A stretch of 45,740 nucleotides of DNA from the IMG/VR virus record IMGVR_UViG_3300005329_000006, positions 1-45,740 of that record. The stretch is one strand, 5' to 3'. The DNA is from a virus. Of this stretch, positions 2,699 through 16,562 are shown one piece after another. The notes under the pieces were generated by a model. That model ran no database searches. It was given only the letters and a program-made list of their open reading frames with translations, and was not told where the DNA came from. The position numbers were made by a program, and so were the translations under genes. Each line of letters opens with the position of its first letter. Positions within the stretch are counted from its first letter, which is position 1.

Positions 2699-4321
2699 AT
2701 GCCTTACTCGAAACAAAACGCCGATGCGGCTTGTAATTTCTTCGAAGGAATTCTCAAACACACCGCGGACGACTGGTTTGGAAAACCGTTCATTCTCGCG
2801 CCATGGCAGGAAGAAGCACTCGCGGCAATTTTCGGACGACTCGACGACGAAGGCCGTCGCCTAATTCAAATGGTGTTTCTAGAAGTCCCGAAAAAAAGTG
2901 GCAAGACCGAGTTCGCGGCAGGTTTGTTGCTACTGCTCTTGATGCTCGATCCGAATCCCGGTTGTCAAACATACGGCGCGGCGGCGGCGACTCGACAGGC
3001 GATGAACGTATACCGAGCCGCTTGCAAGATGATCGAACAGAGTCCGCTTTTGACGCGACACTTACGAATACTCCGCGGAACGAATCGGATCGTGAAGCGC
3101 ACGGATCCGGATTCGTTCTATGCGGCGGTTGCGGCGGACGGCGATCTCTCCGACGGCGTCAATCCCGCCGCCGTGGTGGCCGACGAGGTCCACCGTTGGC
3201 GGACGCGAAAAAATTTGGAAAATTGGGATGTTTTAAGTCTTGGCGGAATCACGCGCAAACAATCGTTAACGATCGCGATCACTACCGCGGGCGTTCAAAA
3301 CGAGTCGCCGATCGCTTGGCGCTTGCATGAAAAGACGAAGCGGATCCAAGAGGGGATTTTCGAGGATCCCACGTTCTACGGGCGAATTTACGGCGCGGAA
3401 ATTGACGACGATTGGACCAGCGAAGCGACTTGGATCAAAGCAAATCCGTCGCTCAAAGATAACGGCGGTTTTCTCGATCTCTCGAAGATCCGGGAAAAAT
3501 ATCAATCGAGTCTGTCCGATCCGGACGCTCAACGATCCTTCCGCCGTTATTACTTGAATGTATGGGACCAGCAGGTCCGGCGCTGTATCGATCTCAACAA
3601 ATGGGATGCTTGCCGCGGCGATTGGACCGCGCGCGGACTCGAACCGAAAGCGCCGGAAGACAAAGTCCGACCATTACATCCGGAAATTCTGAAACGTTTT
3701 ATCGAGCGGCGCGCATGGGCGGGCGTCGATCTGTCCATGACAACCGACATGACGGCGGTCGCGTTCGTGTTTCCCGACGCGGACGGCGTGTTCGAAGTTC
3801 TTCCGTTTTTTTGGATGCCAGCAGAGGGAATCAAGAAACGCGAGATTAACGACGGGATGCCATATCGCACATGGGCCGAACAAGGTTTCCTCGAACTCTC
3901 GCCGGGCGACGTTATCGACTACCGCGAAATCAAAGCGCGGCTTGAATGGGGCGCGCGCATGTTCGACTTGCGCGAGATCTGTTTCGATCCGTATCAGGCG
4001 CGACAAATCTCCGTCCCGATGGTCGAAGACGGTTACGAGTGCATAGAAATTCGTCAAGGCTATTCGATGCTTTCCGAGCCGTCGAAGAAACTGCTCGAAC
4101 TCGTCACCAACAAGAAACTCCGTCACGGCGGACATCCGGTTTTGCGCTGGAATGCTTCGTGCTTGTCGACCAAAGAGCACGACGATCAACTGATGTTTGT
4201 AAAACCCGAACGCCAAAAAGATTCGAACCGCATTGACGGAATCTCCGCGACCGTCGACGCGCTCGCCCGCGCGATGCTAGATGCGGGCGAAACTGTTCCA
4301 CAAATCGAGGTTTGGAATTGA
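2699..4321 (+). CDS. terL: Terminase large subunit
   Basis: This is the ATPase-nuclease motor that packages and cuts phage DNA at the portal. Its 540 residues are typical of the Terminase_1/HK97-like family. The Walker A-type loop VPKKSGKT is at residues 63-70, the Walker B AVVADEVH at about 158-165, and a coupling-type ITTAG at 194-198. The RNase H-like nuclease domain begins with GVDLS (Asp344), and a further acidic segment is at CFDPYQA. ATG 2699 was preferred over the in-frame TTG at 2690 because it gives a normal N-terminus; the ribosome site is weak (GTGGAAA). The stop overlaps the portal start. Confidence 0.97.
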   Translation: MPYSKQNADAACNFFEGILKHTADDWFGKPFILAPWQEEALAAIFGRLDDEGRRLIQMVFLEVPKKSGKTEFAAGLLLLLLMLDPNPGCQTYGAAAATRQAMNVYRAACKMIEQSPLLTRHLRILRGTNRIVKRTDPDSFYAAVAADGDLSDGVNPAAVVADEVHRWRTRKNLENWDVLSLGGITRKQSLTIAITTAGVQNESPIAWRLHEKTKRIQEGIFEDPTFYGRIYGAEIDDDWTSEATWIKANPSLKDNGGFLDLSKIREKYQSSLSDPDAQRSFRRYYLNVWDQQVRRCIDLNKWDACRGDWTARGLEPKAPEDKVRPLHPEILKRFIERRAWAGVDLSMTTDMTAVAFVFPDADGVFEVLPFFWMPAEGIKKREINDGMPYRTWAEQGFLELSPGDVIDYREIKARLEWGARMFDLREICFDPYQARQISVPMVEDGYECIEIRQGYSMLSEPSKKLLELVTNKKLRHGGHPVLRWNASCLSTKEHDDQLMFVKPERQKDSNRIDGISATVDALARAMLDAGETVPQIEVWN

Positions 4322-9613: not shown

Positions 9614-10687
9614 ATGCTTCTTGCTCTAAGAAGTCTCTATGAGTCGGCGGGTTCGGCGATTACAGGGACCGCCACGACTGCACAAGCGGCGCAGTCGGAC
9701 GCTCTAAGCGGCGCGCTCGAATTTACCGGGACAGAAACCAGCGCGCAAGCCGCGCAATCGACCGACGCATCGGGCGCGCTCACGTTCACCGGGACCGAGA
9801 CGTCGGCACAAGCCGCACAAACGGACGCTCTAAGCGGATCACTCGAATTTACCGGCACGGAAGCGAGCGCACAGGCGGCGCAATCGACCGCGGCGTCCGG
9901 ATCCGAGACTTTTACGGGAACCGAGACGTCGGCGCAAGCCGCACAGTCGACCGCGGCGTCGGGCGAAGAAACCTTCGCCGGAACTGAGACAAGCGCGCAA
10001 GCGGCGCAATCGGACAGCGCATCCGGCGCGGAAACGTTCACCGGCGCGGAAACCAGCGCACAAGCACAAACGGACGCTCTAAGCGGCGCTCTCGAATTTT
10101 CTGGAACAGGGGCGACGGCGCAAGCGGCGCAAAACGACGACGTCATCGCGACAACTGGTTACGACGGCACGGTCGCGAGCGCGCAAGCTGCACAGTCGGA
10201 CAGCGCATCGGGCGCGGAAACGTTTACGGGATCAATCGCGACCGCACAGTCGCAATCGACGGCGGCATCGGGCGCGGAAACGTTCACCGGCACAGCGACG
10301 ACCGCACAAGCCGCACAGAACACAATCGCCAGCGACGCAAGCGCGGTTACCGGCTCGATCGAGACTTCGCAAGCTGCACAGTCGGACACGGCGACCGGCG
10401 CGACAGTAGAACAGCAAGCGGGCGGATCGGCGGGACGTCAACGTCGACGATCAACCTACAATCCGCCGCGGATCCCGCGTCCATTGTCCGCGCCGCCTGA
10501 GATTATTCCGGCAATTTCCGGGACCGCTCGGACCGGGCAAACCTTGCAACGGTCGACCTTGCTCGCGAATTTGCATTTCGTCGGCGAGCACGAACAATTC
10601 CAGCAAAGACAAACCACCGCGGGATTCGGCGAAGTCGTCGACGTCGAACTCGAATTGCTTACAGCGATCATGCTCGAAGTCGCCTAA
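9614..10687 (+). CDS. Repeat-rich fibre-like protein
   Basis: The protein is 357 residues. After a short N-terminus (MLLALRSLYESAGS) it has twelve imperfect repeats of 20-21 residues with consensus TGTETSAQAAQSxAASGAxTF (residues 17-266). A basic linker (GRQRRRS) follows, then a C-terminal segment with ISGTARTGQTLQ and an acidic end. Similar repeat proteins (MLLALxSLYE start, TG-SxT-AQG units) are common beside phage capsid genes. An elongated fibre or collar role is inferred. The ribosome site is weak (only A-rich sequence before the ATG). Confidence 0.8.
   Translation: MLLALRSLYESAGSAITGTATTAQAAQSDALSGALEFTGTETSAQAAQSTDASGALTFTGTETSAQAAQTDALSGSLEFTGTEASAQAAQSTAASGSETFTGTETSAQAAQSTAASGEETFAGTETSAQAAQSDSASGAETFTGAETSAQAQTDALSGALEFSGTGATAQAAQNDDVIATTGYDGTVASAQAAQSDSASGAETFTGSIATAQSQSTAASGAETFTGTATTAQAAQNTIASDASAVTGSIETSQAAQSDTATGATVEQQAGGSAGRQRRRSTYNPPRIPRPLSAPPEIIPAISGTARTGQTLQRSTLLANLHFVGEHEQFQQRQTTAGFGEVVDVELELLTAIMLEVA
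9662..10411 (+). repeat. Twelve tandem 63-nt coding repeats
   Basis: These DNA repeats encode the 21-residue unit of the fibre-like protein. Ten units are 63 nt and two are 60 nt (units 7 and 10, each missing one residue). The units differ mainly in the variable part after AQAAQ: alternate copies read SDALSGALEF or STAASGAETF. The array therefore looks as if it grew by duplication of one-unit and multi-unit blocks. Confidence 0.9.
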
Positions 10688-11375: not shown

Positions 11376-12584
11376 ATGGAAATCAAAGATATGGAAACTA
11401 AACTGAGCGGCATTGAAGCCGATCTCAAAACCTTTTTCGCAAAACACGCCGAAGAGTTCAAGGCGACCGGCGCGTCGTCCGCCGAAACCAAAGCCGCACT
11501 CGAAAAACTTGGCGAAGACTGGAAAGAATGTTCTTCGCGCTTGCTCGCGGTCGAGCAAAAGATCGTCTCGCGCAACGATCCGGGCGCAACCGAAGTAAAG
11601 AGCGTCGGCGACTTGATGGTCGAATCCGAAGGTTTCAAGGCAATGGCGAAAGGTGCGAACCGTTCCGGACAAATCAAAGTCGGATCGTTCCACAAAACCG
11701 CTATCGTCAATGCAACCGGACAGAATCAACCGCTCGTCCCAGATATGCGCGTTCCGGGAATCATGGGGCCGGGACTTCGCCGTCTAACCGTCCGCGATTT
11801 GATGCCAAATTTACGGACGTCTTCGAATCTCGTCCAGTTCGTGCGGGAACTTCTCTTCACGAATAACGCAGCATCGCAAACCGGCGGCTCGCCGAACTCT
11901 GGCGAGAACGTCGCAAAACCGGAATCGGCGCTGACGTTCGAAATGGAGAACGCGCCCGTCGAAACCATCGCGCACTGGATCCCGGCGTCGCGTCAGATCT
12001 TGGACGATGCGCCCGCACTTTCCGCTTACATCAACTCGCGTTTGCTCTTTGGTCTGAAACTCGAAGAGGAACGTCAATTGTTGCTCGGAAGCGGATCCTC
12101 GAATAACTTGTCCGGACTGGTAACGGAGGCGACCGCGTACGACACGGCGCGAACCAACGTCGCGACTGATACGTTTATGGACGTAATCCGTCACGCGATC
12201 ACACAGGCGGAAGCGTCGTTCTTCGACGTCGACGCGGTCATTCTTAACCCGCAGGATTGGGAATCGATCGAATTGACGAAGACGAGCGGATCCGGCGCAG
12301 ACGGGCGTTACATCTTCGCAAACCCGCAATCGATCGCAACTCCGCGACTGTGGGGGAAGACCGTTGTCCCGACGTATGCAATGCCGCGATCACAATTCCT
12401 CGTCGGCGCGTTCGCACTCGCCGCGGCGATCTGGGATCGAGACGACGCAACCGTCGAAGTAAGTCGCGAACATTCGGATTTCTTTATTCGAAACATGGTC
12501 GCGATCCTTGCGGAAGAACGGTTAACTTTGACCGTTTATCGTCCGTCGGCGCTCGTTTATGGCGGGTTCCCGTACGGAAGCTAG
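11376..12584 (+). CDS. Major capsid protein (HK97 fold)
   Basis: The 402 residues fit the Phage_capsid (HK97) family. Residues 1-75 are a charged coiled-coil delta domain expected to be removed by the protease. The mature shell protein has the characteristic N-arm and E-loop region with GENVAKPESALTFE, then IAHWIPASRQILDDAP, and near the C-terminus RLWGKTVVPTYAMP, FALAAAIWDRDDATVEVS and AILAEERLTLTVYRPSA. GAGGGG lies upstream of ATG 11376. A strong intrinsic terminator follows the gene, consistent with high expression. Confidence 0.97.
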   Translation: MEIKDMETKLSGIEADLKTFFAKHAEEFKATGASSAETKAALEKLGEDWKECSSRLLAVEQKIVSRNDPGATEVKSVGDLMVESEGFKAMAKGANRSGQIKVGSFHKTAIVNATGQNQPLVPDMRVPGIMGPGLRRLTVRDLMPNLRTSSNLVQFVRELLFTNNAASQTGGSPNSGENVAKPESALTFEMENAPVETIAHWIPASRQILDDAPALSAYINSRLLFGLKLEEERQLLLGSGSSNNLSGLVTEATAYDTARTNVATDTFMDVIRHAITQAEASFFDVDAVILNPQDWESIELTKTSGSGADGRYIFANPQSIATPRLWGKTVVPTYAMPRSQFLVGAFALAAAIWDRDDATVEVSREHSDFFIRNMVAILAEERLTLTVYRPSALVYGGFPYGS

Positions 12585-12669: not shown

Positions 12670-12906
12670 ATGGAAACAGAAAAAAGAATTCGAGTGCAAA
12701 TGACGAAGCGTGATCAGAATCGCCAAGCGGGAAGGTTCTACAACCTACCGGCACCGGAAGCGCGGCGATTGATCGAGATGGGAAAGGCCGTCGTCGTTCT
12801 CGGACCATCTGAGACGAAGCCGATCGAACCGGGCGAAACGAAACTGATTGAACCGGGAACGAGACGAAGTAAAAAAAAACGGATCTCGGCGGACTCCGAA
12901 TCCTGA
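12670..12906 (+). CDS. Small phage protein; upstream half of a possible frameshift fusion
   Basis: The protein is 78 residues and basic, with RFYNLPAPEARRLIEMGKAVVV. That matches the pattern (xxYxLPxxxAxxLIxxGxA) seen in short phage proteins near capsid genes. Read in its own frame it ends in a KPIEPGETK/KLIEPGTR repeat and a Lys-rich tail, at TGA 12904-12906. A run of nine A (12871-12879) near its end would let ribosomes slip -1 into the open frame of the following glycosyltransferase, producing a fusion. It lies just after the terminator, so it starts a weakly transcribed or separately driven cassette. Confidence 0.75.
   Translation: METEKRIRVQMTKRDQNRQAGRFYNLPAPEARRLIEMGKAVVVLGPSETKPIEPGETKLIEPGTRRSKKKRISADSES
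12871..12879 (+). promoter_or_regulatory. Poly-A slippery run, candidate -1 frameshift site
   Basis: Nine consecutive A are read AGT AAA AAA AAA CGG in the upstream frame. A -1 slip gives AAA AAA ACG GAT CTC and then the conserved start of the glycosyltransferase domain. The -1 frame has no ATG, GTG or TTG before TTG 13011, which would cut off a conserved strand. An assembly or sequencing error in the A run is the main alternative. Confidence 0.6.
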
Positions 12907-14519
12907 TTGCGATCAAAACTTGCCACAAATACCGTCATCGCGCCGATGCTCAACGAAGAACATGGATTCCCGACGTCGAGGGATGCGATCTCCGATTCTT
13001 TCTTGGCCGGTTGGAAGGCTATCAACCGCGGGCGGACGAAATCGTGTTGGATGTCGCGGACGATTACTTATCTTTACCGGACAAAACTCGGGCAATTTGC
13101 AAGTGGGCTATTGATCAAGGCTTTGATTACATTTTTCAGTGTGACGATGACGTTTATCTTCGGCCTGAGCGATTGCTTGATTCGGGTTTTCAATCCTTCG
13201 ATTACGTTGGACGACTTCGCGGTCCTAGCGGGAAATATCCCGCGCCGTATTGCTCGGGTTTTTCTTATTGGCTCTCGCGAAAGGCGATGCAAGCCGTGAT
13301 CAATGCGCCATGGAACGGCGATACCGCCGACGATCGATTCGTCGGAAACGTCTTGCAAGACGCTGGAGTCGTCGGCGCACTCGACGAGCGTTACCAGATC
13401 ACGCAAATAAACGAAGCGCTTCCGCCCGGCTACAAAGGCGATTTCGCTCGCGAGGACGAAATGGTAGGTAACGCCGTTTATGGCGCGGGACTTCGCGGCG
13501 CGGCAGACTACCGTTACAGGTTGATCAGCGCTTTCCAAAAGTCCGATTTGCCGAATACCGAAACGCCGGGCGACGGACCGCGGGAAGGAAACGACATCAT
13601 TTCCGCGTGCGAGTTCGAGCCGCAAGCGATGGAACGCATTCACCGCCAGTTTTTACAGTTCATGGGATCCCCGCGACCGTTACTTCCGGACGGCGAATTT
13701 TCGAGCGTTTGCGTTCTGATCAAAACCTTTTTGCGCGACCGCCATCTCGAGGAAACGATCCGCGGTTTGCAAATGCGCGTCCCGGAAATCAAGATCGTTG
13801 TCGTCGACGACGGCGAAGACACAAACCGGAAAATTCAACTCGCGCAACGCTTGCGCGATCAAGGGCATGTTTATATCTGGTTGCCGAAAGACTCGGGATT
13901 CGGCGCGAAAGCAAACGCCGGGATCGCGGCTTGCGATCGCCCGTTTGTGCTGATCGGATCGGACGACTTCGATTTCAACGAAGGATTATTCGTTCGCCGC
14001 GGGATCCGCTCGATGCTCACAGTCTTAAACAGTCGTCCCGAGATCGCGGTCGCGTCCGGGCGCGTCGACAATATCCCGTATGAGTTTCTGTTAGATCTGG
14101 GTGACGACTGGGCACAGATGAAACGCGGACACCGCGGAAACGGATCCGTCGGTCCGGTTCAATACCAGTTGTGCGATTTGACCGTTAATTACTCGCTGAT
14201 CAGGCGCGAAGTTTTCGACGTCGTTTCATGGGATGGCGACAAGGATTCTCCGAAAATAGGTGGCGGCGAGCACGGCGCTTTCTATGTCGACTTAAAGCGC
14301 GCCGGATTCCAAGTCGCTTACGTCGTCGGCGTAAATATCAATCAATTGAAACGGATCAAACCGGATCCGCGCTATTTAGAAATGAGAATGCGCGCGCTCT
14401 CGCCTGAGCGTCCGTGTTACTTGCGGCGCGGGATCAAACACTTTCGAAATCCGGAAGGCATTTGTGAAATGTGCGGAACAAGATGCGCAACGGAAAATCG
14501 CCCGGCAACGATTCAATGA
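12903..14519 (+). CDS. Two-domain glycosyltransferase: GT31-like plus GT2-like
   Basis: This protein has two putative GT-A domains. The first (about residues 1-140) is GT31-like: IAIKTC, RRTW, FFLGR, LDVADDY, ICKWA, the metal-binding acidic triad CDDD (Asp81-83), RPERLLDSGF and SGFSYWLSRKA. The second (from about 269) is GT2-like: VCVLIKTFLRDRHLEETIRG, IVVVDDGED, AKANAGIAACDRPFVLIGSD. The C-terminus ends with a CxxCxxxC cluster. The 5' end is uncertain. The conserved domain begins at about 12900, but no standard start codon lies there, so it may be entered by -1 frameshifting from the preceding gene, or from a rare CTG (12903). It transfers sugars to an unknown acceptor, possibly a virion protein or host surface glycan. 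The stop overlaps the next ATG. Confidence 0.85.
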   Translation: MIAIKTCHKYRHRADAQRRTWIPDVEGCDLRFFLGRLEGYQPRADEIVLDVADDYLSLPDKTRAICKWAIDQGFDYIFQCDDDVYLRPERLLDSGFQSFDYVGRLRGPSGKYPAPYCSGFSYWLSRKAMQAVINAPWNGDTADDRFVGNVLQDAGVVGALDERYQITQINEALPPGYKGDFAREDEMVGNAVYGAGLRGAADYRYRLISAFQKSDLPNTETPGDGPREGNDIISACEFEPQAMERIHRQFLQFMGSPRPLLPDGEFSSVCVLIKTFLRDRHLEETIRGLQMRVPEIKIVVVDDGEDTNRKIQLAQRLRDQGHVYIWLPKDSGFGAKANAGIAACDRPFVLIGSDDFDFNEGLFVRRGIRSMLTVLNSRPEIAVASGRVDNIPYEFLLDLGDDWAQMKRGHRGNGSVGPVQYQLCDLTVNYSLIRREVFDVVSWDGDKDSPKIGGGEHGAFYVDLKRAGFQVAYVVGVNINQLKRIKPDPRYLEMRMRALSPERPCYLRRGIKHFRNPEGICEMCGTRCATENRPATIQ

Positions 14520-15232
14520 ACGAACACGACGAACGGGAAATCATCCAAGAGGCAAGCGGGCGGCTCGCGAAGTTCGAAGGGATGCGGCTTTTGATTGGCG
14601 TCGTTAGTTGCGCGCGCGATCGCGAGTCTCACGAACTGATCAGACAAACATGGGCGAAGGACTCGCCGGTCGCGGTCCGTTTCTTTGTCGGTCGCGATTG
14701 CCCGACAACTGAGATCGACGAAATCGCGCTCGACGTCCCGGACGATTGGAACGGACTACCGGCAAAGGTGCAAGCGGTTTGCCGATGGGCGCTCTTTCAC
14801 GGCTATGACTTCTTGTTTAAATGTGACACTGATTCTTACGTCTCGATTGCTAGACTCTTGGCATCGGGATTTGAGCGCTGGCATTACATGGGCGGATGCG
14901 GCGAAAGCGAAAATGTATATCCCGACTCCTGTTTTCCCGCCAACGGCGGAGGTTATTTCCTCAGTCGGCGCGCCTTGTCCTTTCTCGCGGAACATATGAA
15001 TTTGGGACTCGGTAAAAATTGCGAAGACTGGTGTGTCTTTTTGTCGCTTATGCGAGGCGCGTCGATCTTCGTGCACCACGACGCGCGCTTCCGGGCGAAC
15101 CGACCGGAACCGGGACAGGGTCCGAGCGCGGATAACGACTTCGTAATCTTGCACGACGCGGGCGAACACTCGCTCCGAAATCCCGAACGAATGATCCGCG
15201 CACACGAAGCGGCAACGGAGTTGGTTTTTTGA
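14516..15232 (+). CDS. GT31-like glycosyltransferase
   Basis: The 238 residues are a single GT31-like domain: LLIGVVSCARD, LIRQTWAKDS, FFVGRD, LDVPDDWNGLPAK, CRWALFHGYDF, the metal-binding CDTD (Asp104, Asp106), SGFERWHYMGG, a GGGYFLSRRAL motif and Glu170-Asp171 in the position of the family's acidic base region. It is a paralogue of the first domain of the preceding gene and of the following gene. ATG 14516 overlaps the preceding stop (ATGA); upstream in-frame GTG 14471 and ATG 14483 would extend into the previous gene. GT31 members are mostly known from eukaryotes. Donor and acceptor are unknown. Confidence 0.85.
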   Translation: MNEHDEREIIQEASGRLAKFEGMRLLIGVVSCARDRESHELIRQTWAKDSPVAVRFFVGRDCPTTEIDEIALDVPDDWNGLPAKVQAVCRWALFHGYDFLFKCDTDSYVSIARLLASGFERWHYMGGCGESENVYPDSCFPANGGGYFLSRRALSFLAEHMNLGLGKNCEDWCVFLSLMRGASIFVHHDARFRANRPEPGQGPSADNDFVILHDAGEHSLRNPERMIRAHEAATELVF

Positions 15233-15942
15233 AACCCCTGATCGCGGTTCTCACTTGTTGGACGTTCGAGGTGAACGGACACAATGACGCGCTTCGCCGC
15301 ACATGGTTGAAAGACGCGAAAGGTTTATTCGATTACAAGTTCTTCGTCGGGACCGGGCAAGGCGCGGAAGCCGCGGCGCTTCCACCGGACACAGTCTTTT
15401 TGCCGGACGTCGACGACGGACAGGGCGCGGTTACATACAAGCTACGCGCGGCGCTTCGCTGGGTTTGCGAGCGCGATTATGAGTTCGTTTACCGATGCTT
15501 CCCAGATACCTACGCGCGCCCGGAACGACTTCTCACTTGCGGATTCGAGGCGCACGACTATCACGGCGACTTCCGCGGCGAACATGCAACGCCCGACAAC
15601 TACCCGTCGGGCGGTCCGGGAAACTTTATGTCGCGCCGCGTTATGGAACTCGCGCTCGACGCACCGATCGAGGGACCGGGCGCAGACGGAAAACACACAC
15701 GCGTTTGGCCGTATGCCGACGATCTTTGGTTCGGGCAAGTCTTGAACTGGCATCGCGACAAAGGTTTCCGATATTTCGACGATTCTCGCTTTATCAACCG
15801 CGGATCCCGAGCCGTCGGTCCGCTCAAGACAAACTCGATCGTCGCGACGCATCTTTCCTGTCCCGACTACCCGAAACCTTACTCGCCGGGAATTATCGCG
15901 CACATGCTCGACCGGCATCGCGCATGGTTGGCGTCGCAATGA
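15229..15942 (+). CDS. GT31-like glycosyltransferase with altered metal motif
   Basis: The protein is 237 residues and the third paralogue: LIAVLTCW, LRRTWLKDA, YKFFVG, KLRAALRWVCERDYEFVYRC, RPERLLTCGFEAHDY, GNFMSRRVMEL and YADDLWFGQ. Where the other two read CDDD or CDTD, this one reads CFPDT (Asp93 retained, first Asp replaced by Phe). It may therefore use a different metal geometry or be inactive. TTG 15229 overlaps the preceding stop (TTGA) and has GGAG eight bases upstream. The stop overlaps the next ATG. Confidence 0.8.
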   Translation: MKPLIAVLTCWTFEVNGHNDALRRTWLKDAKGLFDYKFFVGTGQGAEAAALPPDTVFLPDVDDGQGAVTYKLRAALRWVCERDYEFVYRCFPDTYARPERLLTCGFEAHDYHGDFRGEHATPDNYPSGGPGNFMSRRVMELALDAPIEGPGADGKHTRVWPYADDLWFGQVLNWHRDKGFRYFDDSRFINRGSRAVGPLKTNSIVATHLSCPDYPKPYSPGIIAHMLDRHRAWLASQ

Positions 15943-16562
15943 ATACCGCAACAATGGCTCGCCAGATCGCCGCGGAAGCGATCGCAATCGAACCGGGAAA
16001 CCAGAACGAAGGCGAGTTCTCGGAATTGATCGCAATGCTACTGACGACGAACCCGATGCGAAACGTCATGGAAATCGGGACGGAACGCGGTTGCTCGTTC
16101 TATGCGTGGTGCAAGGCAAGCGCGCCCGACGGCGTGAAGATCTCGCTTGATTGGGGATGGGGCGCGAGCGGGACCGGCAATTTCCGGACCGCAGAAGCGC
16201 GCGCGGAACGCGATAACCGTTTGCTCGGATACGCGAAGAACGTTTATCGCATCGAAGGCGATTCGCACTTGCCGGAAAACCGAATGCGCGTTCAATCGAT
16301 CTTGCACGGCGAACCGCTCGATTTCCTTTTTATCGACGGCGATCACTCGGAAGCGGGCGTCCGGCAAGACTGGGAAATGTACGGACCGCTCGTTCGACCG
16401 GGCGGAATCGTGGCATTTCACGACATCAAGGAATGTGAGTACCACACGCGCGCCGGTTGTTTCGTTCATAACTTTTGGAACGGTTTGACCGGCGTCCGCA
16501 AAAGCGAATTGATCTCGCGCGAGCATGTTTGGGGCGGGATCGGAGTTGTGTTTCCAAGTTAA
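15939..16562 (+). CDS. SAM-dependent methyltransferase (class I, Methyltransf_24-like)
   Basis: The 207 residues show a Rossmann pattern: motif I VMEIGTERGCS (residues 43-53), FLFIDGDHSEAGVRQDWE (about 129-146), then VRPGGIVAFHDI (about 152-163) with the usual His-Asp after the strand. This arrangement belongs to the class often found in glycan clusters (Methyltransf_24/cephalosporin hydroxylase-like). It is the last gene of a translationally coupled cassette with three glycosyltransferases, so it probably methylates the sugar they add. ATG 15939 overlaps the preceding stop. A longer in-frame opening to 15495 is only overlap. Confidence 0.85.
   Translation: MNTATMARQIAAEAIAIEPGNQNEGEFSELIAMLLTTNPMRNVMEIGTERGCSFYAWCKASAPDGVKISLDWGWGASGTGNFRTAEARAERDNRLLGYAKNVYRIEGDSHLPENRMRVQSILHGEPLDFLFIDGDHSEAGVRQDWEMYGPLVRPGGIVAFHDIKECEYHTRAGCFVHNFWNGLTGVRKSELISREHVWGGIGVVFPS

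Follow-up and report, generated by a model that had tools for sequence, protein, structure and literature searches.

Programmed frameshifting is known to extend capsid or tail proteins of phages, often with Ig-like domains, as described for gene 10 of T3, Lactobacillus phage A2 and the Listeria phages A118 and PSA in the part of PMC5009743 that cites Fraser et al. 2006. For lambda gpFI, whose gene adjoins that of the capsid protein, binding to the capsid lattice has been proposed (PMC4856287). In the literature searched, which includes few of the subscription papers, no description was found of a glycosyltransferase fused by frameshifting to a protein of the head module. The locus described here places a glycosyltransferase gene that lacks a canonical start in the -1 frame of a small ORF adjoining the capsid gene, and an enzyme-bearing, separate capsid-adjacent protein of this kind may perhaps be new beside the known coat and tail extensions.

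The window, that is, the whole stretch of DNA analysed, covers a viral record, 45,740 bases long, with an HK97-type siphophage-like genome. Its major capsid gene is followed by a 78-aa small ORF and by a cassette of three glycosyltransferase genes (GT1, GT2 and GT3) and a methyltransferase gene that extends to ~16562, after which more head/tail genes are found (Table 1). On the other side of the capsid gene, at 9614-10687, an Ala/Thr-rich ORF with repeated TFTGTETSAQAAQS-like units is flanked on one side by a long Thr/Ser/Ala-rich ORF and on the other by the capsid protease.

Table 1. Features of the window at the capsid gene, the small ORF and the glycosyltransferase cassette.
Feature	Position	Strand	Basis or remark
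Major capsid protein, HK97 fold	11376..12584	+	PF05065 E 4.8e-48; phrog_10 major head protein; directly 5' of small ORF
78-aa capsid-adjacent small ORF, proposed dock	12670..12906	+	Weak PHROG matches, families of unknown function
A9 run, AAA AAA AAA in the small-ORF frame	12871..12879	+	Sequence; present in L002 too
In-register -1 slippery heptamer A_AAA_AAA, proposed slip site	12873..12879	+	X_XXY_YYZ in zero frame
GT1 coding part after the proposed slip: Galactosyl_T then Glycos_transf_2, two GT-A domains	12879..14519	+	PF01762, PF00535, fold search
Possible weak hairpin GGAT.TCGG/CCGA.ATCC	12881..12903	+	z -0.9 to +0.1
CTGA, rival CTG start with 4-nt overlap with the small-ORF TGA	12903..12906	+	Sequence
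GT2, Galactosyl_T-like	14516..15232	+	ATGA overlap with GT1; alternative ATG 14582
GT3, paralogue of the first domain of GT1	15229..15942	+	TTGA overlap with GT2
Methyltransf_24-type methyltransferase, last in cassette, start approximate	15942..16562	+	PF13578 E 9.6e-15

The product of the small ORF is predicted to be folded over residues 1-45 and disordered over its tail (45-78), and the proposed slip site falls within this tail. The 3' end of the ORF reads ACG AGA CGA AGT AAA AAA AAA CGG ATC TCG GCG GAC TCC GAA TCC TGA, which confirms the three in-frame AAA codons of the preliminary description. The nine-A run is the longest homopolymer of the window, and it has the same length in a second contig (L002) that is identical across 6217 bases and is the only other one sharing the pair of small ORF and GT1. 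Such a run is not rare by composition (1.5 expected in the window from dinucleotide composition, one present), and AAA is the commoner lysine codon of this phage (152 versus 77). The run is notable for its place, its frame and the absent start, not for itself: it is in register and lies inside the ~10 codons from which a -1 slip could reach GT1. Within the window alone, the signal exceeds chance weakly.

The GT1 frame is -1 relative to the small ORF. It is closed upstream by TAA at 12870-12872, continues with KKTDLGGLRILIAIKTCHKYRHRADAQRRTW... through to 14519, and is thus open from the slip site over 12873-14519. Reading of the frame and its codons bears out the earlier statement that no ATG, GTG or TTG occurs between this stop and TTG 13011; the near-cognate codons of the interval are ATC 12900, CTG 12903, ATT 12906 and ATC 12912. 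In the predicted model of GT1, strand 1 comprises residues 2-6 counted from 12900, so that a protein begun at TTG 13011 would lack the first part of the fold: strand 1, as the preliminary description held, together with helix 1 and strand 2. The protein scores 39.2 bits against Galactosyl_T (PF01762; curated cut-off 23) and also exceeds the cut-off of Glycos_transf_2 (PF00535). Fold searches match GT-A enzymes; since the model, whose confidence is good for the first 80-100 residues, is confident only up to about residue 160, these matches show GT-A folds only. The preliminary description had further held that eight or ten A would join the two frames: this is correct for ten and applies to seven also, whereas eight A lead into the third frame and not into GT1.

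Homologues of GT1 have a canonical start in the position of CTC 12894 of the window or shortly upstream of it (GTG in L005 and L004, ATG in L003 and L008), as do the paralogues GT2 and GT3. The best full-length relative, L005, is 50% identical, has its GTG exactly at that position and adjoins tail-type genes, not a capsid gene. Relatives in viral contigs are few and stand at other sites with starts of their own; no close relative was found in annotated phages or genome contigs. Because these relatives start canonically, that of L005 beside tail-type genes, a GT1-type enzyme can apparently be made alone, its start codon having been lost in the one place where the small ORF precedes it.

According to the proposed mechanism, most translation of the small ORF would stop at TGA 12904-12906 and yield a free 78-aa protein, and a fraction would slip back by one base on A_AAA_AAA and continue at ACG 12879 into GT1. 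The predicted fusion of 616 aa (70 + 546) would consist of a folded N-terminal domain, a flexible Lys-rich linker and two glycosyltransferase domains, the disordered tail with the slip site serving as a natural linker. The small protein may dock on the (pro)capsid, and the purpose could be to place a few glycosyltransferases on the particle or an assembly intermediate, which they would glycosylate.

Other phages offer a comparison at the same site. A search with the capsid protein identified L011, whose capsid is 58% identical and which has the small ORF and no cassette, and L012, whose capsid is 46% identical and in which the small ORF is followed by a different glycan cassette. The first gene of the latter cassette lacks a canonical start and overlaps the small ORF in the -1 frame, with its beginning ~100 nt within that ORF; an in-register G_GGA_AAC stands upstream of it. 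Its product belongs to phrog_4603 (named alpha-2,3-sialyltransferase; PmgO of P1, orf7 of D3), which is unrelated to GT1: no match was found between this family and GT1, which combines PF01762 and PF00535. Among annotated phages, D3, Psp6 and Tetraselmis viridis virus S20 have the same layout as L012; in S20, TGATGATGATGA stands in the -1 frame directly 5' of C_CCT_TTG, and the first canonical start lies beyond the first motif of the domain. At 5918-9252 of L012, phrog_4603 and Glyco_transf_9 enzymes are encoded, the capsid-adjacent slot holding different glycan-modifying genes from phage to phage.

Scans for phrog_4603 yielded 79 viral and 15 genomic loci, and the tally of starts covered 97 loci, a locus being termed startless when no canonical start is present from the upstream stop to the SGPS motif. 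At the site that follows a capsid gene and its small ORF, 18 of 19 loci are startless, the exception being D3 (GTG or TTG), and the enzyme is -1 to the small ORF in all 19; elsewhere only one locus of 78 (L161) is startless. The difference is significant by Fisher's test (2e-17, or ~2e-10 after a rough de-duplication, kinship being only partly accounted for in either value), and the upstream gene matches Phage_capsid in each of ten loci tested. X_XXY_YYZ heptamers within the reachable stretch occur 23 times in register versus five and two times in the other registers, the latter owed largely to the A9 runs. After de-duplication and with the window excluded, 8 of 12 loci carry an in-register heptamer, where codon shuffles give an expectation of 2.95 (P 0.002). 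When Y is restricted to A or T, the same 12 loci again give 8, versus 0.83 expected (P<1/5000), and none out of register; four of these comparison loci have no canonical heptamer. Natural in-frame fusions of small ORF and enzyme were sought and none was found. Two loci outside this pattern deserve mention. The enzyme of L161 (~3974; IMGVR_UViG_2634166450_000005) lies in a lysis-type region without ATG, GTG or TTG and probably starts at CTG (CTGAGCAAAACTGAC). In L117 (~3990-4019; IMGVR_UViG_3300017646_000029), a phrog_4603 gene directly follows the capsid gene, is +1 to the capsid frame and has no start near its domain; it may be another case of recoding or of a near-cognate start.

The strongest single cases are the L166 clade and D3. 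A textbook -1 signal is present between a capsid-adjacent ORF and a phrog_4603 enzyme at 3974-4041 of L166 (IMGVR_UViG_3300043103_000115) and in L171 and L173-L177. L166 reads GCC AAA AAA AAA CCA, the same AAA AAA AAA run as in the window, and its relatives carry A_AAA_AAC. In this clade, a hairpin of up to 18 bp (-41.8 kcal/mol) lies ~9 nt downstream of the heptamer; its z-score is -6.1 for L166 and -6.4 for L171, and the structure is less pronounced in L173. Across the clade, 94% of pair cells are kept, with one compensatory pair among only four distinct rows. The orf6.5/orf7 pair of D3 (L090 2337-3055, NC_002484) contains C_CCA_AAG inside a block of 16 codons that is invariant among seven D3-like phages, with variation on both flanks (permutation P 0.014). 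In E. coli this heptamer ranks among the strongest -1 motifs and reaches as much as 54% when a stimulator is present (PMC4066793). D3, a cultivated phage, thus likely carries an unannotated -1 frameshift, judging from its sequence. The annotated start of orf7 takes three different positions between the records of D3 and near-identical counterparts. The phrog_4603 enzyme of PAJU2 is annotated as a 'structural protein', a label that gives an unverified hint of a link to the virion.

The window matches the capsid-site phrog_4603 group in position (PF05065 capsid gene, small ORF, enzyme) as well as in the -1 frame of the enzyme, its missing start and the in-register heptamer. A profile of the small ORFs of other phages does not match the small ORF of the window significantly (E 0.88), and weak PHROG bridges connect the latter with D3 (phrog_26919) and L189 (phrog_829). 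Position, size, the predicted domain-plus-tail form and these bridges are the indications of a possible homology of the dock across phages.

No RNA structure 3' of the A9 run stands out from shuffles (z +0.6 to +1.1), and no Shine-Dalgarno-like element was seen upstream of the run. The weak hairpin listed in Table 1 is probably not a stimulator, being no better than shuffles. Stimulators of either kind are usual and not obligatory, the IS cluster A_AAA_AAC_1 having been proven without an established one (PMC4066793). In E. coli, A_AAA_AAA is weaker than A_AAA_AAG, which speaks against slippage, and AAA_AAA_AAA is 50-fold depleted, with a single occurrence in coding sequence, which speaks for it (PMC5009743).

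Rather than being fused by slippage, GT1 might have a near-cognate start of its own, with CTG 12903 as the likeliest candidate besides ATT 12906 and ATC 12900; translation would be coupled to that of the small ORF through the CTGA overlap, and the A run would then be incidental. This CTG overlaps TGA 12904-12906 exactly as the ATGA of GT2 and the TTGA of GT3 do, 4-nt overlaps in every case, and it would keep nearly all of the first predicted strand; a CTG start is also probable for the enzyme of L161. However, CTG starts are rare in bacteria, and CTG 12903 has no Shine-Dalgarno-like 4-mer upstream and lies three codons inside the position at which the relatives start. Slippage and a CTG start are not told apart by the window alone, and it is the comparison that tips the balance to slippage. 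At the capsid-site loci, the 20 codons that lead up to the motif include no CTG, ATT or ATA, so a near-cognate start cannot explain the other startless loci, and for GT1 we regard it as unlikely. Still less probable is a disabled or truncated GT1, whether through initiation at TTG 13011, which would give an inactive fragment, or through an indel of the contig in the run. TTG 13011 is the start that a gene caller would pick and homopolymers are prone to errors, but L002 has nine A as well, the remainder of GT1 is open over 1.6 kb with both domains intact, and the TTG would cost the elements of the predicted fold named above.

A fusion could also arise if RNA polymerase slipped on the A9 run, since the addition of one A or the loss of two would give the same protein by standard translation; this route overlaps with the slippage reading. 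Bacterial RNA polymerase slips efficiently in vivo on nine A or T, Thermus dnaX makes use of such slippage, and the run fits this length criterion of ~nine A or T (PMC5009743); the window, moreover, shows no ribosomal stimulator. Against this stand the heptamers of most other phages at the comparable site (G_GGA_AAC, G_GGA_AAA, C_CCA_AAG and C_CCT_TTG). Because these are not long homopolymers, the ribosomal route is likely the shared one, and ribosomal slippage is preferred to transcriptional slippage, which we consider doubtful, if slightly less so than a near-cognate start.

Slippage that fuses the small protein to GT1, as suggested in the preliminary description, has the best support, which comes chiefly from the startless -1 enzymes and in-register heptamers at this site in other phages; its ribosomal nature and its product we infer. 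The probability that such a fusion is made, by a ribosomal or a transcriptional route, is put at roughly 0.7. It is not placed higher because the pair is known from one phage, the match of the small-ORF profile is not significant and no stimulator is seen at the site in the window. The odds appear even that a recoded docking site is common to HK97-type phages, in which a capsid-adjacent small protein with a slippery, disordered tail would be joined to unrelated glycan-modifying enzymes in the -1 frame (phrog_4603 enzymes and, in the window, a GT31-like/GT2 enzyme), so that an enzyme would be brought to the capsid by a set minority of the docks.

If this holds, a class of phage enzymes is cut short or overlooked in standard annotation, and its members are produced as minor forms fused to a capsid-adjacent protein. 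Such fusions would account for the way in which glycosyltransferase cassettes of the head module reach the particle, widen recoded capsid extensions from binding to catalytic domains, and make the action of these enzymes on the virion testable in D3 as a cultivated phage. The recurrence of the layout, with other slippery sites, in phages as well known as Pseudomonas phage D3 suggests an unrecognised docking of enzymes beside the phage head.

Among known systems, T3, A2, A118 and PSA resemble the proposed arrangement in that a gene of the structural module receives a C-terminal extension by slippage near its 3' end, with the long form as the minor product. In those phages, however, it is the capsid or tail protein that acquires a small binding domain, whereas here a separate capsid-adjacent small protein would gain a glycosyltransferase. 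The gpG/gpGT pair of lambda likewise involves a small ORF of the structural module, a -1 slip near its end and an overlapping second frame, but it forms a tail assembly chaperone, lies between tail genes and has no enzyme in its second part. Lambda gpFI, a capsid-bound packaging chaperone, shares with the small protein a gene position immediately downstream of the major capsid gene. Docking of the small protein on the capsid is suggested by this gene position and by a weak likeness of its predicted domain to the C-terminal domain of gpFI (2lsm), with a Z of only 4.1 that is exceeded by many unrelated folds (ribosomal L9, GINS). GT1 itself resembles Galactosyl_T (GT31-like) and Glycos_transf_2 enzymes, scoring above the cut-off in both Pfam families, and differs from the usual members in being phage-borne, in carrying two domains in one protein and in lacking a canonical start. 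The closest parallel is orf6.5/orf7 of D3 with its PmgO-type 'alpha-2,3-sialyltransferase', where capsid gene, small ORF and -1 enzyme follow one another, the enzyme domain begins inside the small ORF and C_CCA_AAG is invariant; in contrast to the window, the enzyme of D3 belongs to an unrelated family, has an in-frame GTG or TTG upstream and is annotated with the small ORF as two genes.
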